A stretch of 60,002 nt of DNA, taken from Candidatus Altimarinota bacterium (lineage in GTDB: Bacteria; Patescibacteriota; Gracilibacteria; UBA1369; 2-02-FULL-48-14). Positions 1 through 15,473 of the stretch are shown here, piece after piece. Every line of letters starts with the position of its first letter. The first letter of the stretch is position 1. Where the stretch lies: assembly GCA_015485665.1 (NCBI GenBank), contig WFTC01000018.1:1-60002 (forward strand), read 5' to 3'. The notes beneath the pieces were generated by a model, which saw only the letters and a list, made by a program, of their open reading frames with translations, searched no databases and was not told where the DNA came from. The translations under genes were made by a program, and so were the position numbers.

Positions 1-70
1 CAGGTGTTTTCATAACCTCAAATGTCGATTCTTGTGTTTCTATATTATTTTGTGGATTTTCAAAACTCAT
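1..70 (-). CDS. Partial hypothetical protein (N-terminus only, runs off the left edge)
   Basis: An open frame on the minus strand begins with ATG at 70-68 and stays open to the window edge, giving 23 codons that start MSFENPQNNIETQ. The peptide is polar and has no recognisable motif. It is listed because it continues the pattern of the neighbouring accessory region: a minus-strand gene, then a repeat-rich spacer of a few hundred bases, then the next minus-strand gene. If the pattern holds, this is the first exon-like stretch of a third cassette gene. No ribosome binding site is evident. It could equally be chance; the sequence left of the window would decide. Confidence 0.4.
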   Translation of the reverse strand, partial: MSFENPQNNIETQESTFEVMKTP

Positions 71-382
71 GATGTGTGGATATAAAAATAAATTTTGCCC
101 AAATAATTTTTCAACGATAGCTGAAAAGAATTTATTTATTTCAGCTAATGTTTAGGTGCATCTGAAGTTTCAGATACTTTTTTGTATCCCTCATTATTAA
201 GTTTATCATAAAAGAATATAAAAAAGGAGCTAAAATTTACGCGAGCCCCGAGCCGAGGAGTGAACCAGATATACCGTGTTAGGCGAGGGTGAGCGGATCC
301 GCCAGCTGGCGGAGGAGTGAAAGCGCAGCGTCCCCTTGAGTTGAGTTTGAGCATTTCAATTTTAAAAAAATAATTTCCCGTT
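71..382. other. Repeat-rich spacer with GC-rich patch and attC-like half-site
   Basis: No convincing gene. The stretch 240-335 is much richer in G and C than its surroundings and is built of gcgag/gcagcg-type words, like the patch at 890-1010. It contains GTTAGGCG at 278-285, the same core as the palindrome at 855-954, three bases after GATATAC (268-274), but I find no matching second arm, so it is at best a half-site. It also holds a perfect 16-nt palindrome TCCGCCAGCTGGCGGA at 298-313, a 7-bp inverted repeat at 160-175, and the left arm of the inverted repeat that brackets the ParB-like gene (341-377). Confidence 0.6.
341..377 (+). repeat. Left arm of inverted repeat around the ParB-like gene
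   Basis: Two perfectly conserved blocks, TTGAGTTTGAGCA (341-353) and AAAAAAATAATTTC (364-377), are separated by 10 bases. Both recur in inverted orientation at 838-850 and 813-826, there separated by 11 bases. The pair encloses the gene at 383-769 and gives a roughly 510-bp unit, 341-850. Confidence 0.8.
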
Positions 383-769
383 TTATTTCTCAATTTCTGG
401 AATTTTACTTCTTGGCACTTTTCTAACCTCTACTTCAGTTTTACCAAGTATTTTGGCTTTGACGAGTCTATGCAAACCATCAAGAATTAACCAACGACCT
501 TTATTTTCCATAATATCAATAGGATATGATAAATCTGCTTTCATTGTCCTGTCATATTCTTCTTGATGGTTTTCGGGAAAATTGATTACATCATTTGGCT
601 TTAAATCATAATATCCATTTTTGGTACTCCAAAATGGAATTTCAAAATGCCATTCTAATTCTTTAATATCAATTTTTTCAACAGGTATATCTAAAGCCCA
701 AACTTTCTTTTCAGACCAACTAAAGTCAAAGCCAACTTCTTCAATTATTTTTGGTAAAACTTTTTCCAT
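383..769 (-). CDS. ParB/sulfiredoxin-fold domain protein
   Basis: A 128-aa protein. The C-terminal third contains GRWLILDGLHRLVKAKILG, which matches the 'DG.HR..A' box of ParB N-terminal / sulfiredoxin-fold domains. In ParB and ParB-like nucleases this box forms the nucleotide- or phosphate-binding site. The region before it lacks an obvious helix-turn-helix, so this is a stand-alone domain rather than a chromosome-partitioning ParB. Such single-domain proteins are common in mobile and defence-associated DNA. The start is ATG at 769-767. The gene sits alone between two repeat-rich spacers, is enclosed by an inverted repeat, and lies on the minus strand like the radical SAM gene beside it. The biochemical role is unknown; the fold assignment is the only part I would defend. 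Confidence 0.65.
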   Translation of the reverse strand: MEKVLPKIIEEVGFDFSWSEKKVWALDIPVEKIDIKELEWHFEIPFWSTKNGYYDLKPNDVINFPENHQEEYDRTMKADLSYPIDIMENKGRWLILDGLHRLVKAKILGKTEVEVRKVPRSKIPEIEK

Positions 770-812
770 AATTTTTTAGAAAAGTGCTAAATTTTTATAT
801 ATCTTACGAAGA

Positions 813-850
813 GAAATTATTTTTTTATCCTTATTTTTGCTCAAACTCAA
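813..850 (-). repeat. Right arm of inverted repeat around the ParB-like gene
   Basis: GAAATTATTTTTTT (813-826) and TGCTCAAACTCAA (838-850) are the exact reverse complements of the two blocks at 364-377 and 341-353. The arm ends four bases before the attC-like palindrome. Confidence 0.8.
819..835 (+). repeat. 17-bp direct repeat, copy 1
   Basis: ATTTTTTTATCCTTATT is repeated exactly at 1015-1031. The two copies flank the attC-like palindrome and GC-rich patch, giving a 196-bp period. Confidence 0.75.
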
Positions 851-854
851 TTTC

Positions 855-954
855 GCCTAACGTTAGGGATATACGAAGTTTTTCTGGAACGAAGTGGAAG
901 AAAAATTTGGAGAAATGGCGAGCCGAGCCATTTCTCGTATATCCCTTGTTATGT
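855..954 (-). repeat. attC-like imperfect palindrome (candidate recombination site)
   Basis: The outer ends are GCCTAAC (855-861) and GTTATGT (948-954). The first fits the integron attC box consensus RYYYAAC exactly; the second fits GTTRRRY at all but one position. Inside, AGGGATATACGA (865-876) and TCGTATATCCCT (935-946) are exact reverse complements. A second hairpin is nested: GAGAAATGGC (910-919) with GCCATTTCTC (927-936). Length and layout (short conserved ends, paired inner boxes, variable loop) are those of attC sites. Read on the minus strand, it lies 3' of the radical SAM gene with the conserved GTTAGGC box facing the next gene, as expected for a cassette array. The identification rests on form only. 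Confidence 0.5.
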
Positions 955-1014
955 GTCCCGAGCGTAACGCAGTGAAGCGAGAGCGCAGCGTGGTCGGAGC
1001 GAAGCGGAGAAGTC

Positions 1015-1031
1015 ATTTTTTTATCCTTATT
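1015..1031 (+). repeat. 17-bp direct repeat, copy 2
   Basis: This is identical to 819-835. It runs directly into the left arm of the radical-SAM inverted repeat. Confidence 0.75.
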
Positions 1032-1036
1032 ATTCT

Positions 1037-1084
1037 TTTGCAGAGAGATTTTTTTCATTATTATTAGAAAATTTAATTTTTTTC
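1037..1084 (-). repeat. Left arm of 48-bp inverted repeat around the radical SAM gene
   Basis: The outer block TTTGCAGAGAGATT (1037-1050) and inner block GAAAATTTAATTTTTTTC (1067-1084) are exact reverse complements of 2399-2412 and 2365-2382. Both arms have the same 16-base spacing. This looks like the terminal inverted repeat of a mobile element of about 1.38 kb (1037-2412). Confidence 0.85.
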
Positions 1085-1133
1085 GTTTTTATTTTTCCAA
1101 GAGGGGTTAGGGGTGAATTGGAAAAATAAAAAC
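1085..1133 (-). terminator. 16-bp perfect hairpin just after the radical SAM gene
   Basis: GTTTTTATTTTTCCAA (1085-1100) and TTGGAAAAATAAAAAC (1118-1133) are perfect reverse complements around a 17-base loop. The hairpin begins 3 bases past the radical SAM stop codon and abuts the left arm of the 48-bp repeat. It may end transcription, but the stem is A/T-rich and no clean U-run follows, so it could instead be part of the mobile unit. Confidence 0.45.
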
Positions 1134-1136
1134 ACC

Positions 1137-2279
1137 TTATTGTTCACAATCTTTACTACCCATTTCCATAATTTCTTTTTCTTCGGGCGGTATTGTATAC
1201 CCTAACTTTTTCGCTTCTTCAATTCTAGGAATACAACCAACACCTACTTGTTCTATTCTTTCTCTTATTGTCTTTGAAAGCATATCTGTATTTGGTTCAT
1301 ATTTTCCATATATATGACCTGTACCAACGCAGGATAAAATATCGCCATTAATTGTAATATATAATGCTCCTGCACTTTGAGTACAAAATCCTCCTTGAGG
1401 ATATATAACGCCCATGGGATTATTTCCAAATTCTTCTTTATCAATCGTTTCTATTCTTTTTCTTAATTGAGCAAATTCATCAGGTTTTACTTTATCAGCG
1501 ACTAATTGTTTTTGTTCTTCTTCTGATAATCCTTCAAAAGTTCCACTTTCATGATCTAACTTTGTTGGACCTTGGGGAATATATGTTTTTATTTCTGGCA
1601 TTATGTTATTTCTACGACAAAATCTAAAAATATCTGGAATTTCTTCTAGATTACTTTGCATTACCAGAATATCTGCACCAACGCGAGTTGTTGTTTTTTG
1701 AATTCCATCAATTTCAATATTTTCTCCGTCCATAAATCCAAGCTCCCTAAGATTTTCTATAGCTTCATCTCTAAGTTGTGCGTAATTTTGTAATGAACCA
1801 CGAACATAATGATTCATTTTTTCTGGATTTAGACTCCATAGTTTTATGAAGAAACTGATAGGTTTATCTTTATATTTTGCTAAGTTTTCTCTTTGAAAAA
1901 ATCTTGTCGCTCCATGTGTAAAGACCACTGCTTGCATCCCAAGTTCTTCAATTTTATCAATTAAATCACTAAAATGAGGGTCTAAAGTTGGTTCTCCTGC
2001 TCCAACAATATCTACTGTTTTAACTCCCATTCTCTTTGCTTCTTCAAGAAGTTGAATTTGTGTTTCAAAACTCATTTCATCTTTTCCACGTGCCTTACGT
2101 TTTTCTGAAACATCATCTCCTGGTCTATTAACAAAACAACCTGGGCAAGAAAGATTACACACATTAGAAGTATGAGTGACTAATTTTAGTAATTCTCCTT
2201 TTTTATGGGCTGTTATATATTCTTGCATTGAATGATTCCAACCCTCAACAATGCTTGGTTTTGGCTTTTCCATATTCAT
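1137..2279 (-). CDS. Radical SAM protein with Cys-containing C-terminal (SPASM-like) region
   Basis: A 380-aa protein. The radical SAM cluster motif CNLSCPGC (Cys41, Cys45, Cys48) binds the [4Fe-4S] cluster that cleaves S-adenosylmethionine. The glycine-rich GAGEPTL near residue 94 is the typical SAM-binding GGE-like motif. The C-terminal part has further Cys residues in GGFCTQSAG, ILSCVGTG and GCIP, suggesting a SPASM/twitch-type auxiliary cluster domain, as in peptide-modifying and dehydrogenase radical SAM enzymes. No peptide substrate gene is visible nearby. The start may be ATG 2279 or the in-frame ATG two codons later. The gene stands alone, enclosed by a 48-bp inverted repeat with no transposase inside, so it looks like cargo. 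The substrate is unknown. Confidence 0.8.
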   Translation of the reverse strand: MNMEKPKPSIVEGWNHSMQEYITAHKKGELLKLVTHTSNVCNLSCPGCFVNRPGDDVSEKRKARGKDEMSFETQIQLLEEAKRMGVKTVDIVGAGEPTLDPHFSDLIDKIEELGMQAVVFTHGATRFFQRENLAKYKDKPISFFIKLWSLNPEKMNHYVRGSLQNYAQLRDEAIENLRELGFMDGENIEIDGIQKTTTRVGADILVMQSNLEEIPDIFRFCRRNNIMPEIKTYIPQGPTKLDHESGTFEGLSEEEQKQLVADKVKPDEFAQLRKRIETIDKEEFGNNPMGVIYPQGGFCTQSAGALYITINGDILSCVGTGHIYGKYEPNTDMLSKTIRERIEQVGVGCIPRIEEAKKLGYTIPPEEKEIMEMGSKDCEQ

Positions 2280-2364
2280 TATTATTCACTAAATATTTAT
2301 AAATAAATCGTTTTCTGGAGCGATAGCAGAAGAAAACACAATATTATTCCCCTCTATAAATAAA

Positions 2365-2412
2365 GAAAAAAATTAAATTTTCCATTCCTTATTTTAAAAA
2401 TCTCTCTGCAAA
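2365..2412 (+). repeat. Right arm of 48-bp inverted repeat around the radical SAM gene
   Basis: GAAAAAAATTAAATTTTC (2365-2382) and AATCTCTCTGCAAA (2399-2412) mirror the left arm exactly, with the intervening 16 bases diverged. No target-site duplication is obvious in the flanks. Confidence 0.85.
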
Positions 2413-2659
2413 TCATTAAATTGTTAAAAAAATGATTATACATAACTCAAGTATATATGAATTGTGGATAAGTGTAAAAGTACTTCTTGTCTGTTGGTTT
2501 TTTAAAAATATAAAAATGGATTCCTCAAAACATTTATCTTCATATCTTTTGAGTGTAGTCATTTTATCTTATGAGTGGCTTTTTTGTGTGTGCAAGTATG
2601 AATGACTGTAAAGCTAATTGTCTAAGTTTTCAGATTTAGTGCTGTCTGTATTTTTTATG

Positions 2660-2697
2660 AACTACCGTCAAACCTTCTGCGTAAGCTGGCGGTAGTT
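2660..2697 (+). repeat. Hairpin upstream of the integrase
   Basis: AACTACCGTCA (2660-2670) pairs with TGGCGGTAGTT (2687-2697) with one G-T wobble around a 16-base loop. It shares the word AGCTGGCGG with the palindrome at 298-313. It lies 45 bases before the integrase start and is a candidate recombinase-binding or regulatory site. Confidence 0.5.
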
Positions 2698-2741
2698 TAC
2701 AGAAAAAATTCAGGAAAATGTCAGTTTATTTTGTGTAGTTT

Positions 2742-3557
2742 GTGAATATGAAAATTTTACTCAATCATTTAAGGGAGGCATTGATACTTAGAGGCTATAG
2801 TGGAAAGACTATCAAGGTTTATGTGTCGGCTACAATGGCTTTTATTAAATGGTGCAAGGGGGATTTGGATGCAAATATGGTAAAACCATATCTATTACAT
2901 TTGAAGAAACAAGGTAAGGCGGTGCAGACTATTAATTTGCATTTGAATGCGCTTAAATTTTTCTTTCAAGAAGTTTTAGGTGATAAGAGTGCATGGAACA
3001 TTAAAACTCTTAAAAAGATTAAAAAATTGCCTGTTATTTTAAGTAGGAAAGAGATTGAACAAATAATTGATTCAACTAATTCTAAAAAGCATCGTTTATC
3101 TTTAGCTTTATGTTATGGTGCCGGACTTAGGGTAAGTGAATTAATTGCTTTAAAAGTAAAAGATTTGGATTTTGAAAGGGGTACTGTATTTATTAGGCAT
3201 GGCAAAGGGGCTAAAGATCGTTTAACGCTTTTACCGAAGCGTTTGGAGGATGAGCTTTATTTGTGGATTAAAGCTAAAGATAAAAATACAGGAGATTATC
3301 TCTTTGAGAGTAGAAGGGGAGGGTGTTTGACGACTAGATGTATACAAAAAGTGTTCAAGAAGGCTTGTGAGAGAGCCGGAATTTCAAAAGATGTTGGGAT
3401 TCATGCTTTAAGGCATAGTTTTGCAACGCATTTAATAGAGAATGGAGTAAATTTAAGGCATGTGCAATTTTTACTGGGCCATCAAAGCATTTTGACAACA
3501 CAGCGTTATACTCAAGTAAGTATGGATAGTTTCAATTTCATGGAGAGTCCTTATTGA
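2742..3557 (+). CDS. Tyrosine recombinase / integrase (XerC/D-like)
   Basis: A 271-aa protein (GTG start at 2742; ATG at 2748 is equally possible). It has the SAM-like N-terminal core-binding domain (residues about 5-85) and the tyrosine recombinase catalytic domain (about 97-265). The catalytic set is complete: Arg130 (GAGLR), Lys155 (GKGAKDR), His221-x-x-Arg224 (HALRHSFATH), His247 (LLGHQ) and nucleophile Tyr256 (TTQRYTQ). Length and order are those of Xer-type and integron-type enzymes. It lacks the extra EW.WQYVFPS-type segment between motifs II and III that marks classical integron integrases, so it is not a standard IntI. It is transcribed away from minus-strand single-gene units, as an integron integrase would be. 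It could instead be the chromosomal Xer protein or a mobile-element integrase; dif was not identified. Confidence 0.85.
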   Translation: MNMKILLNHLREALILRGYSGKTIKVYVSATMAFIKWCKGDLDANMVKPYLLHLKKQGKAVQTINLHLNALKFFFQEVLGDKSAWNIKTLKKIKKLPVILSRKEIEQIIDSTNSKKHRLSLALCYGAGLRVSELIALKVKDLDFERGTVFIRHGKGAKDRLTLLPKRLEDELYLWIKAKDKNTGDYLFESRRGGCLTTRCIQKVFKKACERAGISKDVGIHALRHSFATHLIENGVNLRHVQFLLGHQSILTTQRYTQVSMDSFNFMESPY

Positions 3558-4549: not shown

Positions 4550-7500
4550 CTAATTTACCGTTTCTTCACTATAAATGTCGACCTTTTCATTCAAATATGG
4601 GGGTGTATTTAGGATTATTGTTTCGTCATAGTAAATGACCAGTCCTCCGCCGGGAATATTTGTTGAAGGAGATCCTACATAGCGGGCACTATTGAAAAGT
4701 TCTTGAACATTTCCATAGAGAGAACCCCTGATTACAAGCTGTTGATCAACTTCAGAGCGAGCTTCACCTGTAAATTTCTGGTCTGTAACCATGAATGCGT
4801 TTATTTCACTTACATTTGCGGAAATATCTATATCACCGCCTTCCACAATTATAGCGAAAGAGGGAAGGTTTCTGTAGTCGGTACCGGCACCCGCATCTTC
4901 ATAAAGAATATTGCCAGTAATGTGAAGATCTGCATTTGTGACTATCAATGTCCAAGCACCATTTGGCACATTAAGATTGCCAAGTGTCAGGCTTTCACCT
5001 GATCCTTGGTAGTATAACACACCGCTTTCTGGGTTATTGTTATTACTGAGTGCATTGACAAGAGTTTCCCAGCTGCTTACAGTTCCGTTTAAAGTAGACT
5101 GTCTTGTTTCCGCATTACGCACAGCTTGAGATATTTGACTGGAAGTTGTACTTTCCACTGTTGAAGATTTCCATAAATCAGCCACACTGACTACGATTTC
5201 ACATACATAAGAGCTTAAATTAGCAATTATTCCTCCTGTATTTGATTCTGTATCATCACAAAAAGATACGCTAAACTCGCTATATCCACTGCTGTAGCTT
5301 ACACCCTCACTTTCTTCATAGTCGTAATTTATAATTGTTTCATCTTCTTCACTTTGCTCCTTTTCATCATCATAAACTACCAGTGAGTCTACATTTCTGT
5401 AATCTTCAACGTCAAACTCACTTCCATCATATATACATGCAATGTCAGAGCCTCCGTCAATCTGCTGTTCTAAGAATACATCTCCTGCATTTCTTGTTAC
5501 AAGATACTGGCAAAGTGAAGCCAGCATCGCTTCAGCTTGAGCACTTTCACCTCCGTTTACTGTAACTTCTGCTTCATTGACAAATTTTTCCGTCAGACAA
5601 GGATCGCTGCCGTTTGAACAGTCAAGAGCATTATTTACAATTGCAACATAGCGCAGGCGGATACGAATATTTCCATCTTCAATTTCATTCGCATATTCCT
5701 GAGCAAAGTCATCTAAATTTAAAAGGCGTACAGCTCCTTCATACTCAAGAGTATTTTCAAGATTATCAACGCAAATCTCGCCTGAAACCTCTGCTCCTTC
5801 TGCATCATAAATACAATCTTCAATGCGTACAGCTTTTTTCCCGTCTTCAAAAGTTAAATATGGAATAACCGGCGCAAAAGCACCATTTTGTATGTCATCT
5901 CCTATTTTGTCGGCATTTTCATCAAATTCTTTGCTGTCAAAGCCCATTCTTTCTATAAGCTCGTAGCGATAAACTCCGTATTGATCTACATCATTATCTT
6001 TATCAATATCGGCACTTAACATTGTAGCATCAGTCACAAAAATCAAACTTCCACCAAGGTCGCTTTGTGTTCCCGCACTTGACCAAAGTCCGTCTGTAAA
6101 ATATAACTCACTTTCACTTCCATTCGGAATATAATCCAAAGTGTAAAATGCACGATCTGCATTATGAGTAAAGAATGTGTCGTAAAAATCATTACCATCT
6201 TGTTCCGGACTAAAATTGAAGGTGTAAATGAACTTGTCAAATTTTCCTATTTCTCCATTTTCTTTGTTGTCTATATCACCTGAGTTACCTCCATTATCAC
6301 CTTCTACGCCGCCTGATCCACTGCCACCTCCACTGCCACCTCCATTTCCACCACCTCCACCAGGATTTCCAGGTTCATCTTCACATATTTCACCTGTGTT
6401 GTCATCAATTCCATCTCCATCTTCATCAACGCATGCACCACCGCTTTCAAAGCTGAATTCATATTCGGCCGAGCAATATGTGGCTTCTCCTTCTACAAAA
6501 GCATCCAAGTATTCATTTTCTTCAAAACCTGTCCAACAAATGCTTCCTGTGTATATGGGCAGGCCGTTAAGATTTACAGATGCACTTCCGCTGCCTGAAG
6601 CGCTTGGACCCGCATCTACTGAAATTTCAATTGAGTCTGTAGTTAGAGCTCCACCATTGCTTTCATAAGCGTAGGCAGACAGGCTTGGAGTGTATAGGGG
6701 GTCACCTGTAGGAACATTTAATTCAAAATTCCAACACATAATTTCATTTCCGTCCAATCTTGCAACATCATCTTGATTATTCGGATCAAAAGATGAACCG
6801 TCTGCAAAATAAGGATCTCCAATGCTTAGTGATTCACATATTGCTGCTTGTGTAATTGTCAGATTTATTGATGCGCTGCAAAATCCCGCTACATCATCCA
6901 ATGCTTTCACATCTATTTGACTTGACTCGCTACTTTCATATGTGACATTCCATCCACCGGATGCAAGATCGCTTTGGTAAGGTGGAGTATTACCATCAAA
7001 GAGTGAATTTTCATCAGTTGAGTCCCATTCAATGGTGTATGGCCAGTCTTCGCCGGTTGAAGCTTCCACATCTATACTGATTTCTTGGCTTGATGGTGCG
7101 CTTGTAGGCATTACAATACTTGGACTTGTTATATCTAGATTTACGCAGTAGGGGAGCTGAATAGCAGCTTCACAAACTCCAGGAGCACTGCCATCTACTT
7201 TTGCTAAAATCCAATCTCCTGCGCTTTGGTTGAAGTAAGAAATTTCTTTTGTTGCTTTTGTTATTAGGTCATTCATACGACCTAAGCTATCCCAAAGACC
7301 ATATCTGAAATCACCGTTTGCGTTTGCCGTATCACCAAAGTCAGGTTGAGTCTCTTGATAGCTGAAAGCCTTCCAATTTATTTCTGAATCTGCTGTGATA
7401 TCTGCGCCGCTTGTATCGGTAACTTGCGTATTTATACTTATAAAGGCACTCCCAAGATCATCTACTCCTATATTTTCGCTGTTTATATCCATAGTCAGGC

Positions 7501-8311
7501 TCTGGCATTCAGGTTTGTCACAAGTGTATTCTGTATAATTTGTGAATGTATCGTTATCGTTCCAATGTTTTTCAGCTGTTCCATCTTCAACGGAAGCACT
7601 CCAACAAGAGGAATCTCCGTAATCTCCACAGTTTTGATCAAATATCCAAAATTGCACATAAAGTGAAGATGTTGTAGTTGCAGATCCAAATGCTTGTCCA
7701 TCTTTGAACTGCCAATACACGGCTTCCGCCATATCACGATCATCACCTTCATCTTCAGTATCTCCGTCTCCGTCGTAATCATTAAACCCTGGAATTAGAG
7801 GTTTGCCTGAAGCATCATCCATCCCATAGTTCCATTCAACATAATCAGGATATACGGCATCAGCAGAGTTATCGTTTTGAACTAACTTGACTTCCACGCC
7901 ACCATAACTTGTTGAACTTCCGCCATTACATGGAACAAGACCGTCATTAACTCCGTCACTTTCTTTTCCTCCGTAAGGTACCGTACATTCCAAAGTGCTT
8001 AAATTTACGGATTGCATGAAATCATCATGTAGATAAATCCTAAGTTTGTGAGCTACAAAATAAGACTCATAACCTTCATCCGGTTTTGTTGTATTTTCGT
8101 AGCCGTGTGCATGCCAAGCGTCCAGAGGCTCTTCACAAGCTATTGTTTGAGAGAGACTGTCACCATAGAAACTCAAAGAAGATTCATCCGAAGAGAAAGG
8201 TTCATACGTCTCTACATTGCGTGCAGCTGAGCTTACGCCGATTATAAGCATACTCAGAATAAATCCGAATACAAATGAAGTTAGAGCGGATCTTGTGAAT
8301 TTTTTATACAT
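4550..8311 (-). CDS. Very large secreted surface protein (1253 aa)
   Basis: The start is placed at ATG 8311, because the protein then begins with a clean signal peptide (MYKKFTRS followed by a hydrophobic core ending near VSSAARN). A TTG six codons upstream is possible but less likely. The protein is Ser/Asp/Glu/Gly-rich with many Cys. It includes D-rich calcium-binding-like stretches (DYDGDGDTEDEGDD, DEDGDGIDD, DIDKDNDVD) and a glycine linker (GGGGGNGGGSGGGSGSGG) near the middle. The C-terminal 150 residues (LHITGNILYED to the end) have an alternating beta pattern and no membrane anchor. No catalytic motif is recognised. It follows the 49-aa lipoprotein by one base and precedes holA by four. 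A role as a surface or pilus-tip-like structural protein is inference from composition. Confidence 0.75.
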   Translation of the reverse strand: MYKKFTRSALTSFVFGFILSMLIIGVSSAARNVETYEPFSSDESSLSFYGDSLSQTIACEEPLDAWHAHGYENTTKPDEGYESYFVAHKLRIYLHDDFMQSVNLSTLECTVPYGGKESDGVNDGLVPCNGGSSTSYGGVEVKLVQNDNSADAVYPDYVEWNYGMDDASGKPLIPGFNDYDGDGDTEDEGDDRDMAEAVYWQFKDGQAFGSATTTSSLYVQFWIFDQNCGDYGDSSCWSASVEDGTAEKHWNDNDTFTNYTEYTCDKPECQSLTMDINSENIGVDDLGSAFISINTQVTDTSGADITADSEINWKAFSYQETQPDFGDTANANGDFRYGLWDSLGRMNDLITKATKEISYFNQSAGDWILAKVDGSAPGVCEAAIQLPYCVNLDITSPSIVMPTSAPSSQEISIDVEASTGEDWPYTIEWDSTDENSLFDGNTPPYQSDLASGGWNVTYESSESSQIDVKALDDVAGFCSASINLTITQAAICESLSIGDPYFADGSSFDPNNQDDVARLDGNEIMCWNFELNVPTGDPLYTPSLSAYAYESNGGALTTDSIEISVDAGPSASGSGSASVNLNGLPIYTGSICWTGFEENEYLDAFVEGEATYCSAEYEFSFESGGACVDEDGDGIDDNTGEICEDEPGNPGGGGGNGGGSGGGSGSGGVEGDNGGNSGDIDNKENGEIGKFDKFIYTFNFSPEQDGNDFYDTFFTHNADRAFYTLDYIPNGSESELYFTDGLWSSAGTQSDLGGSLIFVTDATMLSADIDKDNDVDQYGVYRYELIERMGFDSKEFDENADKIGDDIQNGAFAPVIPYLTFEDGKKAVRIEDCIYDAEGAEVSGEICVDNLENTLEYEGAVRLLNLDDFAQEYANEIEDGNIRIRLRYVAIVNNALDCSNGSDPCLTEKFVNEAEVTVNGGESAQAEAMLASLCQYLVTRNAGDVFLEQQIDGGSDIACIYDGSEFDVEDYRNVDSLVVYDDEKEQSEEDETIINYDYEESEGVSYSSGYSEFSVSFCDDTESNTGGIIANLSSYVCEIVVSVADLWKSSTVESTTSSQISQAVRNAETRQSTLNGTVSSWETLVNALSNNNNPESGVLYYQGSGESLTLGNLNVPNGAWTLIVTNADLHITGNILYEDAGAGTDYRNLPSFAIIVEGGDIDISANVSEINAFMVTDQKFTGEARSEVDQQLVIRGSLYGNVQELFNSARYVGSPSTNIPGGGLVIYYDETIILNTPPYLNEKVDIYSEETVN

Positions 8312-8312
8312 A

Positions 8313-8462
8313 TTAATTGAATATTTCAATATTTGCGGGAGTGCTTGAATCTATTGTATTTTGAGGTACTTCCTGACGAGAAGGATAATTCATATTTCTA
8401 TCTTGGATAGTGCAAGATAATAGCATAGTTGTCAAGAGCATCAGTAGAATATTTTTTTTCAT
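8313..8462 (-). CDS. Small lipoprotein (49 aa)
   Basis: This short frame reads MKKNILLMLLTTMLLSC, then a polar tail of 32 residues ending in IEIFN. The N-terminus is a textbook lipoprotein signal: two lysines, a hydrophobic core and the lipobox LLSC with Cys17 as the lipidation site. The mature peptide would be about 33 residues. It lies 20 bases behind the 1650-aa gene, and its TAA stop is one base before the ATG of the 1253-aa secreted protein, so translation is probably coupled. An lgt-like gene is present in the window. Homologues cannot be judged at this length; the signal and the spacing are the evidence. Confidence 0.75.
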   Translation of the reverse strand: MKKNILLMLLTTMLLSCTIQDRNMNYPSRQEVPQNTIDSSTPANIEIFN

Positions 8463-8482: not shown

Positions 8483-11400
8483 TCAATTTCTTCTTCCACC
8501 TCTTCTTCTGCCGAATATGCCACTGTTTCCGCTATTTGTACCATTTGCTCCATTTTGACTCCCTCCTGTACCGTCAAAATTTCCATCTGTGATTTCGCTT
8601 CTGTTTTCTCCAAGTGCATTTTGACCGCTCTTACTTGATTCGTCTTCAGGAGGAGTTTCTTCTTCAGGTACTGGCTCGGATTGATTTTGATTGTGTATTC
8701 TATCCGCATTTCTGATTCCTCCAACAGCTTCTGCTCCATACATTTTGGCAGCGGCATTAGCTGAAACAGAATCCATACTGCGTGTAGTCGCACCACTGAA
8801 TCCGCTTAGTCGTTCAGCTTTGTAGGTGCTTGTGAAATTGCGACATTTATGAATGTAACCTACTTGCATTCTTACTTTTATATAAATTCTACGACCACCA
8901 TAGCTTGCTATTCTTATGCCGCTTCCACTTTGATTGCCAAGTTGATTCATAACATCTTCAAATGCGGTATATGCTTTAATCTGCTCATCTGAAAGTGATG
9001 TTTTATCTGTAATCTTTTCTTTTCCTATTTCAGCCAAAGCTTCTGCATATTTCGGACCGAAAATCATTGCTCCGGATTCCAGAATTTGCAATGCTATAGG
9101 ATTTTGGAATGCCAATCTTGGATTATCCAGATCAAAAGGCGCCATTTGCCCCTCCAAAGCCTTCAAAAAGTCATATACCTCTTGATCTGTCATTTTGAAA
9201 TTTGCCTTCATTACATCCGGAGTGAGAGTCATTGCTCCTTCCAAATTTACGCTGTCTTGCAGACCATTTAAAAATTCCATTACATTTCCTTGCGGTAATC
9301 CGCCTATGTGAGTGTGTACCAATGTACTTTGCTCCACACTGCTTTCAGGGAGATGGAAATCTCCGTTTGCAAGTGCATGACGCATTTTAAGTCCGTAATA
9401 AGAGGATATTTTTCCTGCGATAGTTTCATAATTTTCTACGCCGGCTTTTTTAAGGGATTGCTCAATTGATGCACGGTTCCAGTTTGTGATGTGCTCTATG
9501 AAAGCCATGGGATTTTCAGGTGCATCTGAACGGTCTTCAATTAGCAATAATTGCAGGAATGCAGTGACTTCAATTGGATTCTTTTCATCAATGCCAAACT
9601 CTTCCATTAAGGGTTTTGCAGTGTCAAGCAGTGCCTTTGCATATTCTTCATTGTTTGCTCCGAGAGAAGCTTTTTGAATAGAGATTGCGTTTTTAATTCT
9701 CAGGGAATTGTTTTTTACGAAATTCTCCATTTCTTTGAATCTTGCACTATCAATACTGCCGGATGCCCTGCTTCCCAAAACGGAATCCAGTTTTTCTTGT
9801 GCCTTTTGTACATCTGCATAATTCCATTCAAGAATATTTTGATCATTTTTAATAACTTCTTCTGCCAGCATGTGAAGGCGCATTTCCGCTTTGGAATTAC
9901 GTCCACCTTCACGTTGAGAAACATAAGCTTCCACATGTTTTTCATTGCTATGACGTATTTGCTCTGGATTTTTATTTGGATTGTCAGTGATATATATGCG
10001 AGTTACTTCTTGAACACCTCCGTTTGGAAGCGGAGTTGCATGAGTATGTCTTTGTATTGCCAAACTTTTACCCGCAGGCATGCTGAAATAAAATTCGCCA
10101 TCTTGTCCGGGATAAGCATAAATACCTGCATTTTTATCTCCGTAAACTTCAACAAGTCCATCAACTTGCAATGGCAATAGTTTGAATTCACCTGCGTTTT
10201 CTATACGTTCAATTTTGACTCCAAGTTTATTCATGAAATAATCGCTGGCTGCTTCAAGGTCATTATAAGGATCAAATGTTTCCGCTCCTTTGCGTCTGTA
10301 AACTCTCTCTCCTTGATTTGTTATATTCAGATCTCCGGAAACAGTTATAACTTTGTATCCTTCCGCACCGGATTGTCTAGCTTTTTCAGCAAGATCTCTA
10401 TCTGCAAATTCAGTTGTATCAAAATGATCAGGTTTAACATAAATCATTTGAGTTTTGCCTTTTATTGCAACCCCTATGCGAAGCATGAAATAAGGAGGGA
10501 ATGCAATAGCTTCCACACCTATTTTATCAAAGCGTAAAGTACTTAGATCATCCAATGCTTCAAAGCTCATTTGTCTTTTGAAATATTCCTTCAGCGACTC
10601 TTTCAATTGAGCTTTCTGACGAGCATTCAACTGATCCAAGTCGCCTGATATTTCATCAAACCTTTGATCTATAATCTTTAGTTGACGATCAATTTCCACT
10701 TTACTTTCAGTGTATAATTCAGAAGCACGTTGCGCTACTACATTTTCTTGATTTATGTCAATCAGGTTTACACCTGCATGTATCAAGGCTAGATTTTCCA
10801 TAAAGCCATGTTCAGCGGAAGTTTGAGCTCCTATGCTCATTTGAATGCCGGAAGACCAAGTTTGATATTCGCCCCAGTTATGTTTTATGCTGAGCGATCC
10901 TGCAGATCCCCATGTCATTTCTCCTGGGAATGGGCCTGCAAAGCCAACTCCGGCACTTATTTCATTTCTTTCTTCCGTTCCAAATTTCTTTTGATAAGAT
11001 GGTCCAAGGTGAAAACTAAAATTTTCTTCAAAGCTATTCGGAATTGCTTTATCACCTCTATTATTGTAATTGAACCCCATACTCAAATTTATTGAATTCC
11101 CATCTTTTTCAAAAATTGTGAAACTTTTGCTTGCTCCAATATTTACATCACGTCCGTTTACTTCGCGCCTTCTTTTGTCATTTTTAGGTGTGCGTCCTTT
11201 CGCATTTCTATGTTGAACTTCATTTTTAGTGAAATGCAGCATTGCAATTTGTGCATTTTTTATATTTTCACCTATTTCTTGTAGTTCTTCCGCTGAAAAT
11301 TCATAGCGTCCATTCATAGCTTCAAGCGGAGCAGCTATGTCTTTTGGGAAAGAATTAATTACTTTTTCTTTCAACTTTGAATATTCTTTCATCTGTTCAA

Positions 11401-13435
11401 TCATCATTCCGTGTTGAATCAATTGTATTGTCAGAGGGCTTAGCTCTTGCATATTTTTCAAGCTTTCAACATTGATTGTTTCATTTGGATAAATAATGCG
11501 ATCCTTACTTTGCCGCCTATTTGTCTGCATTTTTCTATTCATAAGCAGATATCCTTGTTGTCTGTATTTTTCCAATTCTTGAGCGAGTTTATTCAGATCT
11601 ACCACTTCCATGCCATTTTCAATTCGTGTTACTTTTGATCTGATTTGATTGTAAGCATAAAGACTTGTAAAGAGTTGTTCATAACTTTGTCCCTCATCAT
11701 ATTTTATGTACTCTCCCATATTTCCCATACTTGCGTTTTTTCCAACTCTTCGTGTGATGTTTTTCCACAGACCCGCTCGTGATAAAGGTGCATTTTGTTC
11801 CGGAGGGAAAATTGCAGCTATTGCTGGTTCAGCTATTTGACTCAAGTCATCACTTTTAGCAATGCCTCTATCAATTTTCGTATCCACATAATTTGCACTC
11901 TTCATCAAAGGCACGACTTTAAGCAGGCGATGAGCTCCAAGTAAAAACTTTTCATTCATTGACTGCTCTGCAAAGAGAGTGTGTATTTTGGGGGTGCGAT
12001 GAATTACTCCTGATTCAGACTCGGTAAACATTTTACGAATTTCATTTTCATATTTGTAAAGAACTTTTCTTTGCTCATTGTCATTCATTAATTGAGCTAC
12101 TTCTTTGCTAAAAAATTCATCAGCCGTCATATCTTTATTTTCCGCTTTAGCGCTAATAATTGATGCTTCAAGTTTTTTTAAATTTTCCGTTTCATTTTTG
12201 ATCTCTTTATATTTTTCTATGAAAGTTTTACCATTCATTCCAAGAATTACTTGAGTAATTTCTTTCAGAGATATTTTTTTTCTATTTCCTCTTTCCATTA
12301 TTTCAATGAAAAGCGCAGTTCCGTTTTTATCGGAGGCTATGGATTTTTCCAGGTCCGCCAGTTGTTCACAAATTTCAACAACATAATCTCCCATATCCAT
12401 AGCCAGCAAATCAGTTTCAAGATCTGCTCCTTTCATCTTGGCTACATCTAAAGGTATATCAACTTTATAAGATCCATGTAGAATTTCTTCAGCTTCTTTT
12501 AAGGCTGAACTTTCATTATTTCTTTTCATGGTTTCAAATTTTCTTTCTGCGTTGCGTGCCGCAATTTCGTTTTCATAAATTATTTTTTCCACCCCATTTT
12601 CTTCTGCTGCATTTTGAGTGTTTTTATAACTGTCTTTTAAGACAGTGAATGTGTCTCCGGATACTATTGGAATATAATTGCCTTTGTTTTTTTCCCAAGG
12701 TGGATTTGTATAAGTTTTTCCATCTGGCCAAAGATAGGCGTATCCTTCAAAACCGTTTACTCGCTTTACTTGCACTTTTGTAAGACCGGTTGCTGTCATT
12801 ATATGTCCGAGCCTTACGTTTTGGTGTGCATATAGATTTAAATTGCCATCAGTATCATGAAAGTCAACTTTATACACTGCGCCTTCTTTTAGTTTTTTTG
12901 CTTCAACTTTTATTGCTTCGCCATTTGTTTCTTTTCTCACAAATGCAAGAGAAAGCTTTTCAAGCTCGGAAAGATTGCGTGTTTCGTGTGCCTCACTTAT
13001 GCGTTTCATATTTTTTTCAAGAGCATCTAAACGATCTTCCACTTGTTTTTGCAAAAGATTTATTTCATTTTGATCAAGTATAAGATCTGCATATTTTGTT
13101 GTAAAACTATCAAGAAGTTTTACATAGTCATCTTCGCTCAGTTCCTTATTTTTACGTTTTTCGGTGATTTCATTTAATGAATTTAATGCCTTATCCATCT
13201 GTTCAAGCTGAGATCTGTTTAATTCACCTTTTTCCTTTTTAGCTTCAATTAAATCAATAAGGCTTTGAGCCTTTGGATTGCCATTTAAAAGCTCTCGTAC
13301 TTTTTCAGTCATTTTTTCACTTATGTGCCTTTGATACTCCTTTGAGTTTTCAGCTACATTTATTTGCGCTCTTTCAATTCCCGAAGCAGGATCTTCTTTT
13401 GGTATTGTTTTATTTTTGCGTTTAAATATTGCCAT
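8483..13435 (-). CDS. Giant protein of unknown function (1650 aa)
   Basis: Not recognised. The start is set at ATG 13435 (MAIFKRKNK), 30 bases downstream of a good promoter -10 box. A longer frame opens at 13510, but its first 25 codons overlap that promoter. There is no signal peptide or membrane segment. Residues about 1-190 are Lys/Glu-rich and helical with coiled-coil character. A segment near 770-885 is Gly/Ser/aromatic and beta-rich (SFTIFEKDGNSINLSMGF, GVGFAGPFPGEMTWGSAG). The C-terminal 100 residues are low-complexity (SEPVPEEETPPEDESS, then Gly/Asn-rich) and end in GRRRGGRRN. It heads a minus-strand run with a lipoprotein, a secreted protein and holA. It may be cytoplasmic, or exported by a route without a classical signal. 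The basic tail could bind nucleic acid or the envelope; that is speculation. Confidence 0.7.
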   Translation of the reverse strand: MAIFKRKNKTIPKEDPASGIERAQINVAENSKEYQRHISEKMTEKVRELLNGNPKAQSLIDLIEAKKEKGELNRSQLEQMDKALNSLNEITEKRKNKELSEDDYVKLLDSFTTKYADLILDQNEINLLQKQVEDRLDALEKNMKRISEAHETRNLSELEKLSLAFVRKETNGEAIKVEAKKLKEGAVYKVDFHDTDGNLNLYAHQNVRLGHIMTATGLTKVQVKRVNGFEGYAYLWPDGKTYTNPPWEKNKGNYIPIVSGDTFTVLKDSYKNTQNAAEENGVEKIIYENEIAARNAERKFETMKRNNESSALKEAEEILHGSYKVDIPLDVAKMKGADLETDLLAMDMGDYVVEICEQLADLEKSIASDKNGTALFIEIMERGNRKKISLKEITQVILGMNGKTFIEKYKEIKNETENLKKLEASIISAKAENKDMTADEFFSKEVAQLMNDNEQRKVLYKYENEIRKMFTESESGVIHRTPKIHTLFAEQSMNEKFLLGAHRLLKVVPLMKSANYVDTKIDRGIAKSDDLSQIAEPAIAAIFPPEQNAPLSRAGLWKNITRRVGKNASMGNMGEYIKYDEGQSYEQLFTSLYAYNQIRSKVTRIENGMEVVDLNKLAQELEKYRQQGYLLMNRKMQTNRRQSKDRIIYPNETINVESLKNMQELSPLTIQLIQHGMMIEQMKEYSKLKEKVINSFPKDIAAPLEAMNGRYEFSAEELQEIGENIKNAQIAMLHFTKNEVQHRNAKGRTPKNDKRRREVNGRDVNIGASKSFTIFEKDGNSINLSMGFNYNNRGDKAIPNSFEENFSFHLGPSYQKKFGTEERNEISAGVGFAGPFPGEMTWGSAGSLSIKHNWGEYQTWSSGIQMSIGAQTSAEHGFMENLALIHAGVNLIDINQENVVAQRASELYTESKVEIDRQLKIIDQRFDEISGDLDQLNARQKAQLKESLKEYFKRQMSFEALDDLSTLRFDKIGVEAIAFPPYFMLRIGVAIKGKTQMIYVKPDHFDTTEFADRDLAEKARQSGAEGYKVITVSGDLNITNQGERVYRRKGAETFDPYNDLEAASDYFMNKLGVKIERIENAGEFKLLPLQVDGLVEVYGDKNAGIYAYPGQDGEFYFSMPAGKSLAIQRHTHATPLPNGGVQEVTRIYITDNPNKNPEQIRHSNEKHVEAYVSQREGGRNSKAEMRLHMLAEEVIKNDQNILEWNYADVQKAQEKLDSVLGSRASGSIDSARFKEMENFVKNNSLRIKNAISIQKASLGANNEEYAKALLDTAKPLMEEFGIDEKNPIEVTAFLQLLLIEDRSDAPENPMAFIEHITNWNRASIEQSLKKAGVENYETIAGKISSYYGLKMRHALANGDFHLPESSVEQSTLVHTHIGGLPQGNVMEFLNGLQDSVNLEGAMTLTPDVMKANFKMTDQEVYDFLKALEGQMAPFDLDNPRLAFQNPIALQILESGAMIFGPKYAEALAEIGKEKITDKTSLSDEQIKAYTAFEDVMNQLGNQSGSGIRIASYGGRRIYIKVRMQVGYIHKCRNFTSTYKAERLSGFSGATTRSMDSVSANAAAKMYGAEAVGGIRNADRIHNQNQSEPVPEEETPPEDESSKSGQNALGENRSEITDGNFDGTGGSQNGANGTNSGNSGIFGRRRGGRRN

Positions 13436-13464
13436 ACGTGATTGGTTTTTTTGTAAATCTTTAT

Positions 13465-13493
13465 ATTCTAGCATAAATTTAGGGTCTTTACAA
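13465..13493 (-). promoter_or_regulatory. Promoter of the 1650-aa gene operon
   Basis: On the minus strand, TTGTAA (13493-13488), a 17-base spacer and TAGAAT (13470-13465) form a sigma-70-type promoter. Transcription should start near 13458, leaving a leader of about 23 bases before ATG 13435. This placement decides the start codon chosen for the gene. Confidence 0.65.
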
Positions 13494-13538
13494 GAGTCTC
13501 TGCTTGGCATTTTCTTTGACTACTGGAAAAGTAGGAAT

Positions 13539-14240: not shown

Positions 14241-15473
14241 ATGAGTGATTTGAAGTCAAAGTATCTTCCATATTTGATTGCATTTTTACCGGCATTTTTC
14301 CCTTTATATTTGTTTAAAGCCACATGGTTTGCTGTGCCGGTCAATCTTTTAGAGGTGATGCTTGTATTTATATTCGTGATTTTTTTCTTTACGGAATCCT
14401 TGTGGAAGCCAAAGTGGTGGGCACGTTATTCCGTGGAATGGAAACTGTGGCATGTGTTTTTGTTTCTTGCAGCTGCCATATTGAGCACAATTTTTATTCA
14501 AAAAGATCTCACTTTCATTGATGGCAGACCCTTTGATGCTTCAATAAGAGCGCTAGGTATTTTAAAGGGCTGGATTTTAATGCCCATGCTGTATTTCTTT
14601 ATGGCTCGCCATACTTTCAGGCAAAGACCTTCAATGATTCTTTTAAGTTTGGATGCTCTGCTGTTAGGCGCTGGTATTTTATCTCTTTTAGCTTTAAAAC
14701 AGGTATTATATGCCGATTTTATTACTTTTGATTCTCGTGCATCCGGACCCTTTGAATCTGCCAATTATCTTTCTTTGTATATAGGTCCGGCTGTTTTGTA
14801 TGGCTTTGTGCAAAGTATGGAAGATCCTTCATTGAAAGCGATATCACTTTTCAGACTTTTTCTTACTGTGATTAGCGCTGCCGCACTTTATTTTACTCAA
14901 TCTTATGCTGCTTACTTGGCTTTATTGGCAGCTTTGATTATTTGGCTAATATTTTCTTTCCGATCTCTGCCAAAGTCATTTAAAAAAGCTCTGACTGCAT
15001 TCAGCTTTTTTATTTTGATTTTTCTTATTTTGACTCAAGTTAATTCCGCTAAATTTCAGCAGTTTTTGGAGTTTTCCGAACGTTCTTCCACAAGTGTGCG
15101 CTTGCAAGTTTATGAAATTAGTTTAAATCTTATTACACAAAAGCCCTTTTTAGGTTGGGGTCTGGGTTCTTTTGAATGGGCATATCAAAATCAAGCAGCT
15201 GAAATTTTAGGGAAAGCTCCTTTTGAATGGGTTATGCTTCATCCTCATAATATTTTTTTGGCTATGTGGTTAAACATGGGCATATTGGGCTTGGCTGCTT
15301 TTATTTGGATGCTTGTTTCAGCTTTGGCTTGGCTCTTTGAACCTGATAAAAAAGGGCGGCGTATTGCAGCGTTATTATTGGTAATGATTTTGATTCACGG
15401 TATCTTTGATACACCTTATTTTAAAAATGATCTGGCTTTTGAATTTTGGTTGCTTATGGCTATTTTATTGTAA
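14241..15473 (+). CDS. O-antigen ligase / polymerase-like membrane protein
   Basis: A 410-aa protein with about ten or more hydrophobic segments throughout. The signature region LITQKPFLGWGLGSFEWAYQ followed by MLHPHNIFLAMWLNMG matches the periplasmic loop and following helix of the O-antigen ligase family (WaaL/Wzy-like). There, a conserved G.G...F motif and HN(I/L)(F/Y)L contribute to glycan transfer or polymerisation from undecaprenyl carriers. It lies 30 bases after tpiA in a run that also encodes a WecA-like phosphotransferase. Together they suggest assembly of a surface polysaccharide, or glycosylation of surface proteins. Which glycan, and whether it ligates or polymerises, cannot be told. 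Confidence 0.8.
   Translation: MSDLKSKYLPYLIAFLPAFFPLYLFKATWFAVPVNLLEVMLVFIFVIFFFTESLWKPKWWARYSVEWKLWHVFLFLAAAILSTIFIQKDLTFIDGRPFDASIRALGILKGWILMPMLYFFMARHTFRQRPSMILLSLDALLLGAGILSLLALKQVLYADFITFDSRASGPFESANYLSLYIGPAVLYGFVQSMEDPSLKAISLFRLFLTVISAAALYFTQSYAAYLALLAALIIWLIFSFRSLPKSFKKALTAFSFFILIFLILTQVNSAKFQQFLEFSERSSTSVRLQVYEISLNLITQKPFLGWGLGSFEWAYQNQAAEILGKAPFEWVMLHPHNIFLAMWLNMGILGLAAFIWMLVSALAWLFEPDKKGRRIAALLLVMILIHGIFDTPYFKNDLAFEFWLLMAILL

Follow-up and report, generated by a model that had tools for sequence, protein, structure and literature searches.

In classical integrons (IntI1, IntI2, and V. cholerae IntI4/IntIA; TIGR02249), the integrase is divergent from the array and adjoins the attI site, the cassettes all run one way, and folded attC sites have R''/R' cores of the form RYYYAAC/GTTRRRY. 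Most classical attC sites also have a G after the AAC on the bottom strand (PMC2727003). All of these characters recur in the locus described here. The IntI insertion is held to be necessary for attC recombination, and Escudero et al. proposed that integrons arose when an Xer-like recombinase gained helix I2, a history for which intermediates are lacking (PMC7790495). Integrons of archaea resemble the present system in coming from uncultivated genomes and in having cassette arrays with attC, and differ from it in that archaeal IntI carries the additional domain and archaeal attC sites fold as the bacterial ones do; the IntegronFinder rule requires the IntI-specific domain (PMC9668308). Among recombinases outside the integrons, the XerA type (NF040815; PDB 4a8e and 5hxy) comes closest, being the best sequence family for the integrase studied here, of the same length and likewise without I2. 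We found no description of an integron in Patescibacteria in the open-access literature searched.

The window that we analyzed, a stretch of 60,002 nucleotides, is contig C18 from base 1, and its left edge is also the end of the contig. The host, a very small member of the Patescibacteria (Candidate Phyla Radiation) that has not been cultivated, has a genome assembly of 860 kb in 23 contigs with a completeness rating of 100%. An earlier note on the first 3557 bases had described a tyrosine recombinase reading rightward, single genes to its left all reading leftward, a 100-bp palindrome with attC-like ends, and a repeat of the core in the next spacer, and all of these are present as described (Table 1). 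The palindrome ends in GCCTAAC (855-861) and GTTATGT (948-954), and the repeated core, GTTAGGC at 278-284, is the end of a second site. The integron geometry proposed in that note also stands: further attC-like sites continue leftward on C13 and C9, two other contigs of this genome, and relatives do not carry a fixed set of genes at the locus. We put at roughly 0.9 the probability that the locus represents a chromosomal integron in a member of the Patescibacteria, with an integrase that would recombine attI with hairpin attC sites. Taken as a system, it appears from its sequence to have the features of an integron: an array, folded attC sites, discrete cassettes, an attI, and variable content. 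An Rfam search of the locus returned no matches.

Table 1. Features at the left end of the window (strand as read in the window).
Feature	Position	Strand	Evidence
Part of next cassette, cut by contig end	1..148	-	Window begins at base 1 of C18
attC site of cassette 2, degenerate on outer (143-149) side	143..284	-	R1 38.0 bits, E 9.5e-7
Cassette 2, with 128-aa gene	149..860	-	GTTAGGC (278-284) complementary to GCCTAAC (855-861); distal attC 143-284
128-aa protein, cassette gene	383..769	-	48% identical relative in G010
attC site of cassette 1	855..954	-	R1 61.9 bits, E 8.1e-13; fold z -4.6
Cassette 1, first beside attI, with radical SAM gene	861..2445	-	Ends TTATGT / ACATAAC match; attC at 3' end
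Radical SAM protein, 380 aa, cassette gene	1137..2279	-	Pfam Radical_SAM E 1.3e-12
attI-like site, core ACATAAC 2440-2446 then TCAAGTATATATGAATTG	2440..2470	-	Complementary to GTTATGT 948-954; motif also in relatives
Integrase gene, tyrosine recombinase, 271 aa, without IntI-specific insertion (I2)	2742..3557	+	Pfam, NCBIfam, alignment

The attC-like sites fold into a conserved hairpin. A site finder that used only core plus stem returned 52 sites in 16 loci compared with one in the reversed sequence, and 89 compared with four in a larger set. In an alignment of 36 sites, the AAC/GTT core and a 12-bp stem are paired nearly throughout, with 96.1% of cells paired over 22 pairs, and the covariation of the two arms is 0.610, as opposed to 0.144 when shuffled and 0.03 to 0.10 for slid partners. 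Pairing rather than sequence is thus what is conserved in the attC hairpin. The palindrome of cassette 1, one of the 36 sites from which we built the covariance model R1, folds as DNA with -21.6 kcal/mol against -11 for shuffled versions (0/200), whereas the site of cassette 2 was outside the R1 training set. We rejected the idea that every site forms a three-way junction, given that the P2 insertion clearly beats shuffled folds in only 15 of 36 sites, and we treat this segment as a variable insertion.

Read in gene direction, the sites follow the layout RYYYAAC-A-P1(12)-insertion(17-54 nt)-CCCAWRTT-P3-AACWTC-P1'-RRAC-GTTRRRY. The C preceding GTT is invariant and corresponds to the G after AAC on the bottom strand. 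Classical attC is marked by an unpaired central spacer together with extrahelical bases in its R''-L'' arm. Unlike classical attC, these sites have a 4-against-1 spacer, a large insertion of 17 to 54 nt on the R'' arm, and a 12-bp stem free of single extrahelical bases; R1 run on class 1 and class 2 integron regions gave no matches, that is, it does not detect canonical attC. Other matches to GTTAGGCG, on C1, C15, C17, and C23 and at window position 14663, were treated as chance, and the regions read on those four contigs contain no R1 match below E = 0.018.

Because pairing and not sequence has been kept, recombination most likely acts on the bottom strand of attC in its folded form, as in classical integrons. 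Alternatively, the integrase might act on double-stranded sites in the manner of Xer, with hairpins that serve some other purpose such as transcription termination. This idea draws on the Xer-like, I2-less enzyme and on an AAC...CGAA-like half-site common to attI and attC, but it leaves stem pairing that is maintained while the letters change, which a double-stranded site does not need, as well as core ends that are exchanged cassette by cassette, and we consider it unlikely.

The outer bases of an integron core belong to the cassette, so that the start of a cassette (TTRRRY) is expected to complement the cassette's own R'' and not the other half-site. Consecutive sites behave in this way: their ends match within the cassette in 39 of 56 cases, compared with 6.0 ± 2.3 under permutation (maximum 15 in 10,000), and ends match across one site in only 4 of 89. 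The genome G222, which belongs to a different class, has 17 listed sites on one contig, chosen by the covariance model, and 15 of the 16 cassettes there have matching ends. For some of the 17/56 pairs lacking a match, an intervening site has probably been missed or has decayed. These patterns indicate that the sites are boundaries of discrete cassettes, cut within the core; for cassette 1, the exact cut points in Table 1 are taken by analogy from classical integrons. They also bear on whether the repeats could be REP-like intergenic elements or terminators that lie near a Xer gene by chance. Bacterial genes are often followed by GC-rich repeats, but here the ends match within cassettes and not within repeats, contrary to what that explanation predicts; moreover, an attI partner is present, and a single orientation and adjacency to an integrase hold across many lineages. 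We therefore regard chance repeats as extremely improbable.

The attI-like core is 302 bp upstream of the integrase and is the partner of the first cassette's other end. In 11 of 19 loci, a partner of this kind occurs upstream of the integrase at a distance of 89 to 593 bp (982 bp in a twelfth), and these partners sit in a common motif close to RYYYAACTCGTTTTTATNCGAA. A promoter-like TTTACA-17-TATACT is present at 2478-2450 on the minus strand, promoter-like sites being no commoner than in shuffled sequence.

Beyond the window, R1 finds 11 sites (E < 1e-5) in the stretches of the host genome that were read, all on the minus strand and all oriented with the genes. The terminal 50 bases of C13 are identical to the initial 50 bases of C9, and the contig order is likely C13-C9-(gap)-C18-integrase, C9 and C18 not being joined in the assembly. 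The integrases of about 20 relatives read inward from a position no more than about 1 kb from the end of a contig, which is what a variable array that breaks assemblies would produce. With the array contigs of this genome and its relatives included, the arrangement goes far beyond chance. Within the array region on C13, a degenerate attC (L009 9007-9186; R1 E 7.9e-6) adjoins a tRNA-Thr(GGT) gene at its 3' end and lies on that gene's strand.

The integrase has a complete catalytic domain (Pfam Phage_integrase, E 9.2e-42). Against the XerA family NF040815 (NCBIfam) it scores 220.9 bits, only just above the cut-off of 220, and against IntI (TIGR02249) 195.8 bits in two stretches, below the curated cut-off of 265. 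Alignment with IntI and with E. coli XerC and XerD agrees with the earlier note that the integron-specific extra segment is missing: the insertion of about 40 residues that includes helix I2 is absent from this protein and from 24 relatives, or 25 of 25 Patescibacteria integrases aligned. Judged by its sequence, the integrase is therefore not a member of the IntI family under the usual definition, which demands the IntI-specific domain. An AlphaFold model (mean pLDDT 87.8) has as its best PDB match the V. cholerae IntI bound to attC (2a3v, E 1.0e-17), followed by XerA. In a 93-row tree, IntI forms a single clade (support 100) within a larger clade (99) that also holds the Patescibacteria and archaeal recombinases. 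The description "new or Xer-derived type" given earlier fits this placement in an XerA/IntI group without the insertion. Two related integrases contain in-frame TGA codons, eight in G127:C13:24236-24991, from a genome that has attC sites too, and two in G097:C25:28835-29515. In-frame TGA is expected in code-25 Gracilibacteria/Absconditabacteria.

The absence of I2 could have arisen in two ways. A classical integron lineage may have lost I2 and rebuilt its attC, or the branch may never have had I2. Loss gains some room from the tree, which leaves the branching order among the IntI, archaeal, and Patescibacteria recombinases unresolved. Against it, none of the aligned Patescibacteria integrases retains the insertion, the outgroup recombinases align with the integrase along its full length without it, and IntI is a compact clade inside an I2-less radiation, which makes a single gain of I2 on the IntI branch the simpler course. 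Loss thus seems to us rather unlikely. That the Patescibacteria integron lineage never had I2, and that folded-strand recombination arose or persisted with an Xer-like enzyme and an attC of different construction, is a proposal to which we give even odds.

These data suggest how the system might operate. The integrase would itself carry out recombination between the adjoining attI and the attC that ends each circular cassette of one to a few genes. Incoming cassettes would be inserted beside the integrase with their genes pointing away from it, and cassettes would be excised and reshuffled at RYYYAA^C / G^TTRRRY. The enzyme probably works without the I2 helix, aided by the differently built attC, in which the 4-against-1 spacer and the R''-arm insertion could give strand choice, as extrahelical bases do in classical sites. 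We regard the system as a new integron variant, one that probably recombines folded single strands without I2.

Another possibility is that a canonical IntI encoded elsewhere in the genome moves the sites. In its favor, 14 of 39 site-positive genomes have no integrase match at E ≤ 1e-40. The sole other relative of the integrase in the host genome, however, is a 38% match on C5, and TIGR02249 found no canonical IntI above the cut-off over 140 genomes of the class, which is weak evidence as no control matched either. We judge the involvement of a canonical IntI to be very unlikely and continue to assign recombination to the I2-less integrase, which is present in 25 of the 39 site-positive genomes compared with 2 of 20 listed site-negative ones (Fisher p 6e-5).

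The system is spread over the phylum and is not a local oddity. Integrase relatives (E ≤ 1e-40) occur in 60 of 148 related genomes, and R1 sites in at least 64 of 145 genomes of the class and at least 40 of 240 genomes of the phylum. An alignment query, where a single-protein query gave no matches, located named hosts across a number of Patescibacteria lineages, among them Wolfebacteria with the complete genome CP011209; wherever a named Patescibacteria locus has matches, the sites are upstream of the integrase on the opposite (minus) strand. Some named Peregrinibacteria integrases are identical to those in genomes of the window's own order, and the host therefore probably resembles Peregrinibacteria. 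Around XerA-like relatives in archaea, Paenibacillus, and Flavobacteria, the flanks contained no convincing attC matches, and a whole-genome R1 search of four archaeal, Paenibacillaceae, and Flavobacteria genomes with such relatives found none. The system may reach past Patescibacteria. Weak R1 matches upstream of a related recombinase were seen in the Spirochaetes GWE1_32_154 (L203 2268-2402) and Treponema sp. Co333_bin15 (L195 428-600); we do not claim an extension to Spirochaetes on one weak site each, the whole-genome search having found one and none.

If the lineage never had I2, it would stand either as a surviving intermediate form of the classical integron or as its independent sister. 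A cassette system that is widespread, appears to be active, and lacks I2 makes the origin model of Escudero et al. directly testable. Surveys that require the IntI-specific domain will not score such arrays as complete integrons and may overlook them entirely, and the arrays affected lie in one of the largest bacterial radiations. For bacteria with very small genomes, the cassette system would provide a mechanism of gene acquisition.

Gene content varies among relatives, as the first reading of the sequence had led us to look for. None of the five same-family genomes searched has the radical SAM gene, whose relatives are only 32 to 33% identical and occur in 3 of 99 genomes, one of these counted as the host genome itself; 11 of 13 cassette proteins tested have no match in about 1.9 Mb of relatives' loci. 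The radical SAM protein resembles prokaryotic viperins only weakly (PADLOC pVip, E 1.4e-8) and is far under the NCBIfam viperin cut-off (32.2 versus 180 bits). The 128-aa protein matches no protein family, and its relative in G010, a genome of another family, sits between two attC sites (contig C12), which makes this a shared cassette type. On the other side of the integrase, past a holA-like gene, are two very large proteins of 1259 and 1675 aa (window 4550-8329 and 8483-13510) with no Pfam match at E ≤ 1e-5. Other cassettes of the host genome encode an FAD oxidoreductase, a C39-like peptidase, a P-loop kinase, response regulators, a second radical SAM protein, an FGE/sulfotransferase protein, and a cytidine deaminase. 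In several cassettes, the GC-rich stretch GAGGGTGAGCGAGGTACGAGCGAAAGTGCAACGTCCCC and variants of it recur directly before attC in gene direction (window 285-331; L009 7747-7790 and 12813-12850; L010 6966-7000); similar to the insertion within attC, this stretch may be left over from an earlier site.
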